The translations under genes and the position numbers were made by a program. Source: Methylococcus sp. Mc7 (GTDB lineage Bacteria; Pseudomonadota; Gammaproteobacteria; Methylococcales; Methylococcaceae). From it: DNA of 64,000 nucleotides. The notes under the pieces are model-generated. The model ran no database searches. It saw nothing but the letters and a program-made list of their open reading frames with translations, and was not told the origin of the DNA. Each line of letters opens with the position of its first letter. Position 1 is the first letter of the stretch. Shown here in pieces: positions 9,219 to 63,955 of the stretch. The DNA lies in assembly GCF_019285515.1 (NCBI RefSeq), contig NZ_CP079095.1, forward strand, positions 1,302,001-1,366,000. Reading direction: 5' to 3'.

Positions 9219-11798
<2,580 letters not shown>

Positions 11799-11832
11799 CC
11801 TCTCTGCCCCAACCCACCGGTCTGACTCGGAG

Positions 11833-11860
11833 TTGTAACGGGACGGTAATCTTCGGTAAT
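11833..11860 (+). promoter_or_regulatory. Pho-box-like direct repeats upstream of phoB
   Basis: Three heptamers, TTGTAAC (11833-11839), CGGTAAT (11844-11850) and CGGTAAT (11854-11860), are spaced 11 and 10 bases start to start, the helical phasing of PhoB-binding boxes (consensus CTGTCAT with 4-bp spacers). They end 38 bases before the phoB start, suggesting autoregulation. The match to the enterobacterial consensus is partial. Confidence 0.55.
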
Positions 11861-11898
11861 TAGATTAGACGCGGTTTTTTAACGCTGGAATCCGAAGA

Positions 11899-12597
11899 AT
11901 GTCCGATATCAACGTGCTGGTAGTGGAAGATGAGGAAGCCATCCGGGAGATGCTGACCCTGGTCCTCGAACAGGCGGATTTCGCCGTGCACACCGCGGGA
12001 GACGTGCAGCAGGCCTTGAGCCGGATGGACGAACAGGAACCCGACCTGATCCTGCTGGACTGGATGCTGCCGGGAATCAGCGGCGTGGAATGGGCGCGCC
12101 GCCTGAAGAAGGACGAGAATTACGGCGACATCCCGCTTATCCTGGTGACGGCCCGCGGCGAGGAGGAAGACAAGATCAGAGGGCTCGACGTGGGGGCCGA
12201 CGACTACGTGACCAAGCCCTTTTCTCCGCGGGAACTGATTGCGCGCATCCGGGCGGTCCTGCGCCGGAGCAACCGGCAGGCCAAGCTGGACGGACGCATC
12301 GAGATCGGCGGCATTCTGCTGGACACCGACGAACACAGGCTCAGCATCGACGAGGAATCGGTGAACCTCAGCCCGACGGAGTACCGCTTGATGGAGTTTT
12401 TCCTGACCCATCCGAGCAAGGTATACAGCCGGGCTCAACTGCTCGACCAGGTGTGGGGCCGCAGCGCCTATATCGAGGAGCGGACGGTCGATGTCCATAT
12501 CCGGAGGCTGCGCAAGATACTTTCGGAACACGACCGGGAAGACATGATCCAGACCGTCCGCGGATTCGGTTACCGTTTCTCGACGCGGCCGGACTGA
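11899..12597 (+). CDS. phoB: phosphate regulon response regulator PhoB
   Basis: A 232-aa OmpR/PhoB-class regulator. Receiver domain residues 1-120: acidic pocket E10/D11, phosphoacceptor D54 in LILLDWMLPG, T84 and K106 in YVTKPFSP. The C-terminal winged helix (about 135-230) has the typical LSPTEYRLMEFFLTHP and RTVDVHIRRLRKIL. It activates phosphate-starvation genes when phosphorylated by PhoR, encoded three bases downstream. The upstream heptamer array suggests it controls itself. Length and motifs match PhoB closely; among OmpR-class regulators the pairing with a PhoR-type kinase makes the assignment secure. Confidence 0.93.
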   Translation: MSDINVLVVEDEEAIREMLTLVLEQADFAVHTAGDVQQALSRMDEQEPDLILLDWMLPGISGVEWARRLKKDENYGDIPLILVTARGEEEDKIRGLDVGADDYVTKPFSPRELIARIRAVLRRSNRQAKLDGRIEIGGILLDTDEHRLSIDEESVNLSPTEYRLMEFFLTHPSKVYSRAQLLDQVWGRSAYIEERTVDVHIRRLRKILSEHDREDMIQTVRGFGYRFSTRPD

Positions 12598-12600
12598 CGC

Positions 12601-13926
12601 ATGTTCCGGGCCTGGGCTTCCGAGTTCTTCACGATATTCTGGGTGGTGCTGGTAGCGGTCATCGCCGGCCGTATCGCTGAGGACTTCGGTTTCGCCCTGT
12701 GGGTCGGCACGGCCTTGTACCTGCTTCATCACCTGGTCCACGCCAACCGGCTGTATGTCTGGATGCGCGGCGGGCGGGCCGAGCGGATTCCCGCCGGCAC
12801 GGGGATCTGGGAAGAAATCTATTATCTGATCCACAAGCTGCGCCGCCGCAACAAACGGCGCAAGAAGCAGCTCATCCGCATGCTGGAGCAATTCCGGACG
12901 GCGACCTCGGCCTTGCCGGACGCCACGGTGGTGCTGGGCGCGCGGGACGAAATCGACTGGTTCAACGAATCCGCCTGCCGCCTCCTCGGCCTGCGCAAGA
13001 GCGATCTCGGCCAGAACATCGGCAATCTGGTGCGCTATCCGAAGTTCGCCGAACACCTGAAGAATTCCAGGGACAGCGCGACCGTCAGCATCCCCTCCCC
13101 GGTGGACGAGGCCCTGCAGTTGGAGGTCAGGATCGTCCCCTACGGGGGGGACTCCAGGCTGCTGATCGCTCAGGACGTGACGCAGCTTCGTTTCATGGAG
13201 CGGGTGCGCAGCGACTTCGTGGCGAATGTTTCTCATGAGCTCCGCACGCCTTTGACGGTTTTGAAGGGGTACATGGAAACCCTGAACGACGGCGGGCAGG
13301 ATCTCCCGGCGTCCGCCTACGGCAAGATGGTCCAGCGCATGGTGGAACAGACCGGCCGCATGCAGAACCTGGTCGACAATCTGCTGTCCCTCACGCGGCT
13401 GGAATCGGGCCCGCCCAAACCGGCGACCGTGGTTCGGATTCCCGTTCTGCTCGAGCGGCTGTGCAAGGAAGCCAACGTGGTGGAGGCGAGCGAGCACACG
13501 CCCGTGCGGCTGAGGCTCGACTCCCAGGTTTCCTTGCTGGGCAACGAAACCGATCTGCACAGCGCGTTCGCCAATCTGATTTCCAACGCGATCAAGTACA
13601 GCAGGCCGTCCGATACCGTGACGGTACGCTGGTCCCAGGAAGAATCGGGCTGCGCCCGGCTGGATGTCGAAGATACCGGCCCAGGGATTCCGAAAGAACA
13701 TATTCCCCGTCTCACCGAACGTTTCTATCGGGTCGAAATCGAAGGCTGCCGGAACAAATCGGGCACCGGTCTGGGGCTCGCCATCGTCAAACACGTCATG
13801 TCGCGGCATGACGCCGAACTGTTCATCGCCAGTGAACTCGGGCGAGGCAGCCGTTTCACCTGCCTTTTCCCGCCGAGCCGCGTGGTATCCGGGGCGGACG
13901 CCGGCCAGCCGGATCTTCCGGTGTAA
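12601..13926 (+). CDS. phoR: phosphate regulon sensor histidine kinase PhoR
   Basis: A 441-aa membrane kinase. The N-terminus holds hydrophobic segments within residues 8-45, followed by the basic RRRNKRRKKQLIRML linker that is typical of PhoR, a PAS domain (about 100-200; ALPDATVVLGARDEIDWFN), a HisKA domain with phosphoacceptor His near 212 in VSHELRTPLTVLKGY, and the HATPase domain with DTGPGIP and GTGLGLAIVKH. No large periplasmic loop is present, as usual for PhoR, which senses phosphate through the Pst/PhoU complex. No pstCAB-phoU genes lie nearby. It forms an operon with phoB. Confidence 0.93.
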   Translation: MFRAWASEFFTIFWVVLVAVIAGRIAEDFGFALWVGTALYLLHHLVHANRLYVWMRGGRAERIPAGTGIWEEIYYLIHKLRRRNKRRKKQLIRMLEQFRTATSALPDATVVLGARDEIDWFNESACRLLGLRKSDLGQNIGNLVRYPKFAEHLKNSRDSATVSIPSPVDEALQLEVRIVPYGGDSRLLIAQDVTQLRFMERVRSDFVANVSHELRTPLTVLKGYMETLNDGGQDLPASAYGKMVQRMVEQTGRMQNLVDNLLSLTRLESGPPKPATVVRIPVLLERLCKEANVVEASEHTPVRLRLDSQVSLLGNETDLHSAFANLISNAIKYSRPSDTVTVRWSQEESGCARLDVEDTGPGIPKEHIPRLTERFYRVEIEGCRNKSGTGLGLAIVKHVMSRHDAELFIASELGRGSRFTCLFPPSRVVSGADAGQPDLPV

Positions 13927-59634: not shown

Positions 59635-60513
59635 TCACCCTTTCTGGCGGTCTGCCATCATGCGTTCGAGGATTGGCCGGAAAATGATCTCCATCGCCAG
59701 TCCCATCTTTCCTCCCGGAATCACGATCGAGTTGTGTCGTGACATGAAGGAGTTTTGCAGCATGGACAGGAGATAAGGGAAATCCACGTTGAATTTGCCC
59801 GGCTCCTTGAAACGGATGATGACGAAACTTTCATCCGGCGTGGGAATGTCCCGAGCGATGAACGGATTGGAAGTATCGACCGTCGGAACGCGCTGGAAAT
59901 TGATGTCCGTCTGTGAGAACTGAGGCGTGATGACTTTGACGTAGTCGTCCATTCGGCGCAGTATCGTTTCCGTGACGTCCTCGGGTTTATAGCCGCGTTC
60001 GGCGGTATCGCGGTGGATTTTTTGAATCCATTCGAGATTGACGATGGGAACCACGCCGACGAGAAGATCGACGTATCGTCTTACATCGATGCCTTCGGTA
60101 ACCACGCCTCCGTGCAAGCCCTCGTAAAACAGCAGATCCGTTCCCGCAGGCACTTCTTCCCATGGGGTGAATGTCCCCGGCTTGTAACCTCCCAGACGCT
60201 GGCTTTCCGCCTCGTTATGGACATAAAAGCGGCGGTGAGCCGTTCCCGTTTCACCGTAATGCCGAAAAACGTTTTCAAGCTCGTCCAGGATATTGGCTTC
60301 GATCGAAAAGTGGCTGAAATGCCGGCCTTCGCGTCTGGCCTTGTCGATCTGCGCGCGCATCTCCACGCGGTCATAGCGATGAAAGCTGTCGCCCTCGATG
60401 ACGAGCGGCTTGAGACCGAGCCTGAAGAAAATGTGCTCGAATGCGCATTTTACGGTGGTCGTGCCCGCACCGGAGGAACCGGTGATGGCGATGATGGGGT
60501 GTTTCTTGGACAT
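59635..60513 (-). CDS. prk: phosphoribulokinase (proteobacterial class)
   Basis: A 292-aa kinase that makes ribulose 1,5-bisphosphate, so it serves the Calvin cycle. Walker A GSSGAGTTT lies at residues 12-20; marks include VKCAFEHIFFRLGLKPLVI, EGDSFHRYDRVEMRAQID, GTFTPWEEVPAGTDLLFYEGLHGG and VTPQFSQTDINFQRVP. The length and the lack of the plant-type redox cysteines fit the octameric bacterial form. It reads leftward, with a TATAAT -10-like element upstream. It is placed next to the RuMP genes, so both one-carbon routes are near each other. Confidence 0.95.
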   Translation of the reverse strand: MSKKHPIIAITGSSGAGTTTVKCAFEHIFFRLGLKPLVIEGDSFHRYDRVEMRAQIDKARREGRHFSHFSIEANILDELENVFRHYGETGTAHRRFYVHNEAESQRLGGYKPGTFTPWEEVPAGTDLLFYEGLHGGVVTEGIDVRRYVDLLVGVVPIVNLEWIQKIHRDTAERGYKPEDVTETILRRMDDYVKVITPQFSQTDINFQRVPTVDTSNPFIARDIPTPDESFVIIRFKEPGKFNVDFPYLLSMLQNSFMSRHNSIVIPGGKMGLAMEIIFRPILERMMADRQKG

Positions 60514-60740: not shown

Positions 60741-61271
60741 TTATTCCAGGTTAGCGTGTCGAGTTCTCATTTCTTCTTCGGGGATGCCTTTCTCGTGGAT
60801 GATGTGAGAGATGGTGGCTTCGAGGAAGAGGAGGGTAGAGAGCTCGAAGACGGTGCCCATGGGCATGCCGACGACTTTTCCGAAGAGCTCGGGGAGCCGA
60901 TGCGGAAGAGGTTGTCGGCGAGGTCGCCGAGGGAGGAGCTGTCGCGGGTGGAGATGAGGGCGATGTTGGCGCCCTGCTCCTTGGCTTTCTTGGTGAAGGC
61001 GAGCATGGTTTCGGTTTCGCCGGAACCGGAGATCACGATCAGCAAGTCGCCCTTGCGGATGCTGGGGGTGACGATTTCGCCGACGACGAAGACGTCATAG
61101 CCGCCGTGCATGAGGCGCATCGCGAAGAACCTGGCGACCAGCCCCGACCGGCGCCCCCGCGACGAAGACGCGGGAGGCCTGGTCGAGCATGGCAGTCAGT
61201 TTTGCATCATAGCCGGCATCGGTGGCAGCGAGGATGCCGGAGATTTTGTCTATGATCAGTTTCTGATGCAT
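60741..61271 (-). CDS. hxlB: 6-phospho-3-hexuloisomerase (PHI), frameshifted as read
   Basis: SIS-domain isomerase that turns hexulose-6-phosphate into fructose-6-phosphate, second step of the RuMP route. ATG 61271 begins MHQKLIIDKISGILAATDAG; the core GEIVTPSIRKGDLLIVISG and SGSGETETMLAFTKKAKE and the end HEKGIPEEEMRTRHANLE are all recognisable, but in three different frames. A net loss of two bases lies near 61150-61160 (in the expected A-G-A-G-R-S-G loop) and one base is lost in the C run read at 60891-60894. Restored, the protein is 177 aa, normal for PHI. Expression as read would give a truncated product, so error in the sequence is more likely than decay. Confidence 0.85.
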
Positions 61272-61283
61272 GCAAATTCCCGT

Positions 61284-61928
61284 TTAGGCGGAAGCGGCGA
61301 CGACCTGTTCGTAGATTTCGCGCGCGGCATCGGCGGGGAAGCGGCGCCGTAGATGGCGGCGCCGACGACGATGATGTTGGCGCCGGTCTTGACGACCTGC
61401 TGGGCGGTGGAGGCCTTGATGCCGCCGGCGACGGAGATGCGGACGGGGAGGCCCAGCTTGGCGATGGCCTGGAGGTCGGCGAAGGGGTCTGGCCGGCGGC
61501 CTGGGCGTCGAGGCCGGTGTGGATGCCGACGATCTGGGCGCCGGCGCGGGCGGACTCACGGGCGCAGGTGGCCTTGTCGGGGACGTTGATCAGGTCGACC
61601 TGGACTTCGGCGTTGTGCTTGTTGGCGGCATTGATGACGCCCTTGATGGTGGCCAGGCCGGCGACGCCGAGGACGGTGGTGATGTCGGCGCCGGCGGCGA
61701 AGAACGGCGCGGCCTCGTACTCACCGGCGTCCATGGTCTTGAGGTCGACCAGGAGCAGCTTGTTGGGAAGCGCTTCTTGAACTCCTTCACCAGGGCGATG
61801 CCGTTGTGCTTGATGCTCGGGGTACCGATCTCGAAGATATCGACATAAGGCGCGGTGAGGCTTGCGAGCTTCAAAGTCTGCGGGATGTCCAGCGTGTCCA
61901 GTGCGAGCTGAATCAATGGTCTTGCCAT
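61284..61928 (-). CDS. hxlA: 3-hexulose-6-phosphate synthase (HPS), frameshifted as read
   Basis: Aldolase-type enzyme joining formaldehyde with ribulose-5-phosphate, the entry of the RuMP cycle. ATG 61928 has a strong ribosome site (GGAGGAG). Recognisable parts: PLIQLALDTLDIPQTLKLAS, IFEIGTPSIKHNGIALVKEF, MDAGEYEAAPFFAAGADITT, VQVDLINVPDK, AREIYEQVVAASA. Three single-base losses, each in a C run on the coding strand (near 61765, 61484 and 61335), break the frame; corrected length is 215 aa, normal for HPS. It lies just upstream of phi, 12 bases apart, the standard order. Confidence 0.88.
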
Positions 61929-62065: not shown

Positions 62066-62747
62066 TCAGCCGTTGAGGCTTTTCAGGTACTTGGTGACGC
62101 CGGTTTCGCCCGTCGCCACGACGGCGGGCTTGGGCAGGTTCTTGATGTACTTGGCGACACCGGTTTCGACCGCGGCGGCCACTTCGGGCAGCGGCAGGCT
62201 CTTGAGGTACTTGGCCACGCCGGTTTCGGGGCCCGGACGGACTCCGGCAGCGCCTTGAGGTATTTGGCGACACCGGTTTCGGCGCCCGCGGCCCCGGCCG
62301 TGAGGCCCTGGGCCTGCAGGTACTTGGCGACGCCGGTGGCGCGGCGGCCGCCGGTGCCGGAGCGGCGGCCGGCGCTGCGGCGGCCGGGCGGGCGGGTGCC
62401 GGCCGGCGGCTGCTCCAGACCACGAAGCCGATCAGGGCCACGACCACGCCGCCGAACAGGTAATAATCCGAGCCGGTGTCCTGGGCGGGTTTCGCGGCGC
62501 TGGGCGCGGCTTCGGCGGGGGCCGCCACGGCGGGCTGAGCGGCCGGCGCCTGGCTGGCGGGCGCGGCCGGTGCCGCCGGGGGCTCGGCCGCCGGGGCGGC
62601 GGGGGCCGCCGCGGGCTTGCCGATCAGGCTGGGATCCTGATAGATCACCGACGGCTTGAAGTCGGGCGGATATTCAGCGGCGCCCGCGAGCGGGGCGGCC
62701 AGCAGCAGGGCTGCGAACACGGTGTAGGTCGAGAACGGTTTCTTCAC
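62066..62747 (-). CDS. exported protein with Ala/Pro linker and five TGVxKY repeats, frameshifted as read
   Basis: No family recognised. From GTG 62747: signal peptide (FSTYTVFAALLLAAPLAGA), a short globular start (YPPDFKPSVIYQDPSLIGKP), a long Ala/Pro tract (about 45-90), a membrane helix (about 96-112, YYLFGGVVVALIGFVVW), another Ala/Pro tract, then five repeats 18-20 residues apart: ATGVAKYLQAQ, ETGVAKYLKAL, ETGVAKYLKSL, ETGVAKYIKNL, ETGVTKYLKSL, ending NG. Single-base losses near 62340 and 62227 break the frame; corrected length is about 227 aa. The repeats are exact across the breaks, so the protein is real. Placed between fba and hps, it may relate to their expression or location; that is inference. 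Confidence 0.7.
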
Positions 62748-62892: not shown

Positions 62893-63955
62893 CTAGCGGA
62901 CGATCGGATCGAGTTCGCCCCGGGCATACGCCAAGCTCATCTCCTCCAGGCGCCGGGGCTTGAGCTTGGCGGCCTGGCCGGCGGCGCCGAAGGCCTCGTA
63001 GCGGGCCCGGCAGATCGCGGTCATGGCGGTTTGCGCGGCCTTGTAGAGCTTGCGCGGGTCGAAGTTCTTCCTGTCTTCGGCCATGAACTTGCGCATGGCG
63101 CCATAGGAGGCGATGCGCAGATCGGTATCGATGTTGACCTTGCGGACCCCATGGCGGATGCCCTCGACGATTTCCTCGACGGCACGCCGTAGGTCTGGCC
63201 GATGTCGCCGCCGTAGTCGTTGATCATCTGCGCCCAGTCCTCGGGGACCGAGGACGAGCCGTGCATCACCAGATGGATGTTGGGAATCCGCTGGTGGATG
63301 TCCTTGACCCGATCGATCCGCAGCACCTGACCGGTGGGTTTCCGGGTGAACTTGTAGGCGCCGTGGCTGGTGCCGATGGCGATCGCCAGGGCATCGACCT
63401 GGGTCTTGCGGACGAAATCCGCCGCCTCGTCGGGATCGGTCAGCAGCATCGAGTGCGCCAGCTCGCCCGCCGCGCCGTGGCCGTCCTCCTCCCCGCCCGG
63501 CCGGTCTCCAGCGAGCCCAGGCAGCCGAGTTCGCCTTCCACCGAGACGCCGCAGGCATGCGCCATCTCGACCACCTTGCGGGTGGTCTCGACATTGTACG
63601 CATAGCTGGCCGGCGTTTTCATGTCCTCCTCGAGCGATCCGTCCATCATCACCGAACTGAAGCCGGACTGGATGGAGCGGATGCACACCGCCGGGGAGGC
63701 GCCGTGATCCTGGTGCATGCACACCGGGATGTGCGGATACATGTCGATCGCGGCCAGCACCAGATGGCGCAGGAACGGCTCGCCGGCATACGTCCTGGCG
63801 CCGGCCGAGCCCTGCAGGATCACCGGGGCGTCCACGGCCGCGGCCGCCTCCATGATGGCCTTGATCTGCTCCATGTTGTTGACGTTGAACGCCGGCAGGC
63901 CGTAGCCGTGCTCGGCGGCGTGATCCAACAGCTGACGTAGGGAGATCAATGCCAT
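62893..63955 (-). CDS. fba: class II fructose-bisphosphate aldolase, frameshifted as read
   Basis: Zinc aldolase of the Calvin-type class II group, used in both the RuMP and Calvin cycles. ATG 63955 begins [20 protein letters not shown]; marks include [20 protein letters not shown], zinc-site [66 protein letters not shown] and [17 protein letters not shown]. The frame breaks twice by single-base loss, near 63500 (G/C-rich E-E-D-G stretch) and near 63189 (Y-G-V-P-V-E-E). Corrected length is 354 aa, normal for the type. First of the leftward gene run in this window. Confidence 0.9.

Follow-up and report, generated by a model that had tools for sequence, protein, structure and literature searches.

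A family of repeat proteins, undescribed as far as our searches of the open-licence literature reach, is closely tied to the RuMP pathway, and its most likely function, which we put at just short of an even chance, is that of a multivalent, often membrane-anchored tail that docks 3-hexulose-6-phosphate synthase (HPS). One member is encoded in the window, by which we mean the whole 64,000-nucleotide stretch of Methylococcus sp. Mc7 DNA analyzed here, on the minus strand between fba and hps (62066..62747, with a GTG start at 62747 and the stop codon at 62068-62066). As the original prediction held, it has the layout of an exported, single-pass protein. A signal-peptide-like N-terminus, recognized from the sequence and kept in the homologue alignment (MKKPFSTYTVFAALLLAAPLAGA, 62679..62747), is followed by the conserved periplasmic motif (EYPPDFKPSVIYQDPS, 62628..62675; YPxxDFxPxVIYQD across the family alignment). 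An Ala/Pro tract then leads to a single membrane helix (YYLFGGVVVALIGFVVW, residues 95-111, 62415..62465, assigned from the sequence by a hydrophobicity rule) with SSRRP directly after it, and a second Ala/Pro tract leads to five repeat cores located by motif scan. These cores, on the minus strand like all the features above, read TGVAKYL (repeats 1 to 3; 62317..62337, 62257..62277, and 62204..62224), TGVAKYI (repeat 4; 62144..62164), and TGVTKYL (repeat 5; 62084..62104). Their core-to-core spacing of 20, ~18, 20, and 20 residues agrees with the five T-G-V-x-K-Y repeats at 18-20 residues that had been predicted, and they are the sole matches to [TS]GV.[KR][YF][LIVM] in six frames of the whole 64 kb. 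Because five near-identical 7-mers share one spacing, the repeats are not due to chance.

The predicted span of the gene, 62066 to 62747, and its architecture stand, but, a point absent from the original prediction, the frame is broken twice in the assembly, and the gene is split over three frames that carry, respectively, the start to the linker, repeats 1-2, and repeats 3-5. Between 59638 and 63955 the minus-strand neighbors are frame-broken as well: hps, which encodes the proposed docking partner (61293..61928, with TIGR03128 matches), lies in four pieces, the hexulose-phosphate isomerase gene (60744..61268) in three, and the upstream neighbor fba, for fructose-bisphosphate aldolase (62899..63955), in three; the downstream phosphoribulokinase gene (59638..60513, also minus) is intact. 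Because close relatives have intact copies of the repeat gene and the neighbors here are also broken, assembly indels are the likely cause, in preference to decay of the cluster. A second copy of the repeat gene lies 6,656 bases from the first. Excerpts of the genome paper on M. capsulatus Bath describe the pathway region as tandemly duplicated and list the enzymes of the duplicated region, and the repeat protein is absent from the description in those excerpts (PMC517821).

The 23 homologues that were aligned share the signal peptide, the YPxxDFxPxVIYQD motif, a variable linker, one helix, and the C-terminal repeats. Three repeats keep their G, V, and Y without exception across the 23 sequences while the linkers are not conserved, which rules out chance or low complexity as the source of the repeats. 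A wider collection of 112 distinct ORFs, which includes a few of the kinase type, holds 832 repeat units. V is present in ~100% of the units, Y in 99%, and G in 77%, the position after V is mostly A, E, or S and the next K or R, and each ORF carries 3 to 18 units by a loose motif; the collecting expression itself requires V/I/L, Y/F, and a minimum of three motifs, and the figures for composition and count are therefore partly built in. Unit spacing peaks at 15-17 and at 20 residues, and several families possess a second, more repeat-rich protein with up to 18 units by the loose motif. Across the 112 ORFs the short motifs are spaced along a low-complexity chain, as in EPYC1- and CsoS2-like linkers.

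A Pfam search of the repeat proteins returned zero matches over the cut-off and an NCBIfam search of seven of them no credible family match; these profile searches found no catalytic or DNA-binding domain. An LPXTG anchor called by NCBIfam in one of the seven proteins (16.9 bits against a cut-off of 15.9) covers the membrane helix alone and was judged spurious, and a match to a diatom pyrenoid family (E 0.0099) and the other weak Pfam and NCBIfam matches are below the cut-off and were judged to be chance. Among solved structures there is no credible relative, and the weak matches of the profile fall on the linker and helix. A plasmid-borne origin and a phage gene were likewise rejected, the searches having given no plasmid match and no credible PHROG match. 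Single motifs at four loci (L218-L221; TGVSRYIK, TGVARYLK) sit in a loop of an enzyme that we take to be cysteine synthase and were judged a coincidence, and no ORF with the strict motif was found at three others (L216, L217, and L222). The open-licence literature searched contains no mention of the motif strings, of the family, or of the locus tags MCA3042 and MCA3048, whose numbers we inferred.

Membrane topology was judged by two simple rules, one that calls a helix by hydrophobicity (threshold 1.6) and one that compares K/R in the ten residues after the helix with those before it. A helix precedes the repeats in 63 of 117 distinct repeat ORFs, and K/R are more numerous after it than before it in 58 of these, equal in 4, and fewer in 1. 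Where positive charges are in excess on the C-terminal side of the helix, the repeats most likely face the cytoplasm, the orientation that had been proposed. The rule finds no helix in the other 54 ORFs, among them those of L053 and L057, which have a signal peptide and score 1.57. In the Methylophaga-like family the same rule finds neither signal peptide nor helix in the pathway-linked protein; these proteins mostly start with an amphipathic-looking stretch, for example MSEKGFFSSICGLFKGIF. The periplasmic motif is doubled in several families. The membrane-anchored docking scaffold of the original prediction has partial support: linkage and topology speak for it, but the anchor is not universal and two structure predictions, described below, showed no binding.

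The distribution of the family is closely tied to the pathway. Two nine-residue patterns, run against 84,980 species genomes, yielded 167 stretches, of which 56 are confirmed relatives, a lower bound given that the patterns miss variants such as TSVERYI. Nearly all 56 loci are titled Methylococcales, the remainder being a Methylophaga, a Piscirickettsiaceae MAG, a few loosely named MAGs, and one locus titled Methyloversatilis (L079). At 50 of the 56 a pathway gene is present (HPS, isomerase, transketolase, or transaldolase); the others are L103, L105, L120, L126, L127, and L130, and in the last three the contig begins less than 1 kb from the repeat gene. Gene orders vary by group and include repeat-hps-isomerase, hps-isomerase-tkt-repeat-tal, and hps-repeat-tal-hps-isomerase. 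A 53-residue repeat peptide has a match (E <=0.1) in 33 of 61 near relatives of the window's genome. In a sample of 121 genomes from the order, HPS occurs in 92 and the repeat in 78; 76 have both, 16 HPS only, 27 neither, and just 2 (G871 and G897) the repeat only, for a Fisher p of ~1e-13 that ignores kinship and so overstates independence. In the class sample (369 genomes) the repeat and HPS over the cut-off occur in the same 6 genomes, and in the phylum sample (398 genomes) HPS passes the cut-off in 4 and the repeat is found in 1. The expectation that the repeat would be linked to RuMP, and not spread broadly without the pathway, is borne out in these scans and samples. The pathway can do without the repeat protein: in one family (G772), which we take for Methylophilaceae from its gene order, 30 of the 31 genomes have HPS and none of the 31 has the repeat.

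HPS itself carries a signal of the association. In a FastTree phylogeny of 92 HPS sequences, rooted at the midpoint, a clade of 72 contains all 70 from repeat-bearing loci, those of the distant Methylophaga-like family included, together with two sequences from G023 and G882, which lack the repeat. The remaining 20 sequences, all from repeat-less genomes, make up the other clade and come from the Methylococcaceae (7, in G008, G010, G015, and G018), from family f5 (7), and from the G772 family (6). In a larger HPS tree G028 and G036 group with G023 and G882, and two HPS-isomerase fusions from repeat-bearing genomes lie beside the repeat-less clade. Of the eight repeat-less Methylococcaceae genomes, half (G023, G028, G036, and G882) accordingly have HPS of the methanotroph clade and half that of the other lineage. 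In the latter four (L245-L250) the HPS lineage is unlike that of their relatives, and in three of them (G010, G015, and G018) the isomerase follows the family, nesting within those of repeat-bearing genomes, although local support is weak; replacement of HPS together with loss of the repeat protein is a possible reading of these sequences.

At the level of residues, L58 and R164 occur together in 96 of 102 distinct HPS from repeat-bearing genomes (126 HPS in total), and among the 24 from repeat-less genomes R164 is found in 1 and L58 in 4. The six exceptions all belong to the Methylophaga-like family, being its second copies of HPS, with K58/K164 in 6/6; the HPS adjoining the repeat gene in that family has L58/R164 in all 7 sequences from 6 genomes. 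Among 213 HPS positions, 164 comes first (phi 0.98) and 58 second (phi 0.91), a ranking in which the second copies were labeled as minus after their residues had been seen and which reflects just three label changes on the tree. Of the four repeat-less genomes with methanotroph-clade HPS, three have K58/T164 and G882 has L58/R164, with Q108 in 4/4. G051, left out of these counts, gives a repeat match (E 1.9e-12) although its HPS is K58/Q164. We had expected HPS-isomerase fusions, which do not adjoin the repeat gene where seen, to be without L58/R164, and this was wrong: because 21/21 carry both, the residues track the genome, not the gene neighborhood. As far as sequence comparison can tell, then, residues 58 and 164 track the repeat, with exceptions. 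In an AlphaFold2 model strands 3, 5, and 7 begin with L58, E108, and R164, respectively, which places these residues at the bottom of the barrel, where they could form a docking surface or serve internal barrel packing.

We propose that the methanotroph repeat protein would have its N-terminus exported, one helix anchoring it in the membrane, and a flexible cytoplasmic tail carrying a few short, probably amphipathic TGVxKYL helices, with the second protein of several families supplying additional repeats. Each helix would dock HPS, which catalyzes the first step of formaldehyde fixation, and might do so near the barrel bottom (L58, E108, and R164). HPS relatives are dimers, and several repeats per chain might cross-link such dimers into a cluster close to where formaldehyde arises in the periplasm, presumably to the benefit of the cell. 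An old report is said to describe Methylococcus HPS purified at ~310 kDa and dissociating, when the ionic strength was low, into units of ~49 kDa; a scaffold may bear on so unusually large and dissociable an enzyme, which, if confirmed, would suit HPS dimers on a scaffold, and to which we give no weight until it is checked. We know of no settled answer to how methanotrophs control the leakage of toxic formaldehyde between its periplasmic source and its cytoplasmic sink, and a dedicated scaffold, if true, would be a genetically testable one.

Structure prediction lends no support to a particular docking site. In an AlphaFold2 model of the natural read-through chain of repeats, HPS, and isomerase (65-row alignment), the enzymes are mostly confident and the repeats, at pLDDT 27-40 and a pTM of 0.47 for the chain, are each a short helix left unplaced on the enzymes. 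The read-through chain of repeats and transaldolase (60 rows, pTM 0.61) likewise gives short helices with pLDDT <50, unplaced. Both runs are of monomer chains with shallow repeat alignments and are a weak test, so that the outcome is an absence of support, not disproof.

Two genomes, G429 (behind the locus titled Methylomonas sp. SURF-2) and G894, encode an additional protein of this architecture inside the methanol dehydrogenase cluster (L265 7922-8506 and L266 9263-9835). Its gene neighbors are a PQQ dehydrogenase, a response regulator, and a Polyketide_cyc2 gene (MxaD-like), and G894 continues with genes for the small subunit of methanol dehydrogenase (PF02315) and for a cytochrome. This position fits, in these two genomes, the earlier suggestion of a scaffold placed where formaldehyde is made. 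The repeat is also found in a large protein of 0.8-2.0 thousand residues in 6/6 Methylophaga-like genomes looked at, all of which had been found via the repeat (L120 8312-13780; L205, L207, L209, L211, and L213; repeat form T[GS]V[AED]RY[IL]). The one scanned, at L213, has Hpt, HATPase_c, CheW, and receiver domains and is a chemotaxis-type kinase. A bolder version of our proposal, rather unlikely in its entirety, would combine these observations into a membrane metabolon: the periplasmic motif would hold methanol dehydrogenase or methane monooxygenase and the cytoplasmic repeats would assemble HPS in a cluster bound to the membrane, which would let formaldehyde be fixed on entering the cell, and in the Methylophaga-like family the same code would also tie the chemotaxis kinase to the pathway.

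Docking could operate as proposed with transaldolase, transketolase, or the isomerase as the direct partner and HPS merely a frequent neighbor. In Methylomonadaceae-like loci, and in several others, tkt and tal flank the gene directly, and tal is the next gene in the Methylophaga-like family; hps, however, is the next gene in most Methylococcaceae loci, and the isomerase tree, on its three sequences, leaves the repeat-less Methylococcaceae unseparated. For transaldolase and transketolase the 4 and 2 repeat-less sequences, respectively, are too few for a comparison, and we rate this explanation as unlikely. Another, quite unlikely, is that the repeat is a general docking peptide by which the tail and the chemotaxis-type kinase recruit one shared hub protein, for example to the pole or membrane. 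The Methylophaga-like genomes, with the repeat both in the large protein and at the pathway locus, speak for it, but three Methylococcales genomes examined gave no kinase-type match, and the HPS correlation would become a coincidence. We give little credence to a sensor or regulator in which the periplasmic motif would detect methanol, formaldehyde, or the dehydrogenase while the tail signals to the pathway enzymes: the conservation and doubling of that motif and the copy adjoining methanol dehydrogenase would suit it, whereas the failure of the profile searches to find a catalytic or DNA-binding domain, the widely varying number of repeats, and the soluble versions without a periplasmic part argue against it. 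Very improbable is a role of the repeats as amphipathic helices that bind or shape internal membranes. They are predicted to be short, lysine-bearing helices and methanotrophs form internal membranes, but the repeat is present and pathway-linked in the Methylophaga-like family, which to our knowledge lacks such membranes. A drifting low-complexity protein with no binding role is hardly credible, for the Ala/Pro-rich linkers do vary freely but the G, V, and Y of the repeats do not.

Docking of HPS by a repeat tail would have parallels in known systems, which we compare by layout. EPYC1 is a Rubisco linker protein of pyrenoids (PMC11570498). Like EPYC1 and other disordered Rubisco linkers, the repeat protein has regular short motifs on a flexible chain and a tie to a carbon-fixing enzyme; it differs in its membrane anchor, its periplasmic motif, its formaldehyde pathway, and in that its binding is putative. 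With the carboxysome scaffold CsoS2 it shares a bacterial, repeat-based design and a gene beside that of the gathered enzyme, but its repeat is different, it is often membrane-anchored, and no shell or Rubisco role was seen. CcmM also has several docking units per chain, its small-subunit-like repeats, which are folded domains, whereas the units here are by prediction helices, each about 7-11 residues long. Enzyme assemblies engineered for the use of methanol (titles cited in PMC8879981) share the aim of bringing pathway enzymes together; they are man-made, and the repeat protein would be a natural solution. If our proposal is true, the linker principle of pyrenoids and carboxysomes extends to another carbon-assimilation route, and synthetic methylotrophy gains a natural peptide code.

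Several copies lie away from pathway genes (L054, L056, L058, and L060). That at L058 (9778-10554) is a soluble-looking repeat protein with a Cys/His-containing C-terminus, and a pathway gene is absent from the surrounding 20 kb; the copy at L054 (9979-10662) is near a long collagen-repeat protein with DUF937 (11110-13644). A further copy in G016 (L068 8657-9313) is near purD and ribose-5-phosphate isomerase genes. In G043 (L072 3198-17719) hps-isomerase-transketolase occurs three times in tandem, units 1 and 2 each followed by an identical 458-residue repeat protein and unit 3 by one of 223 residues.
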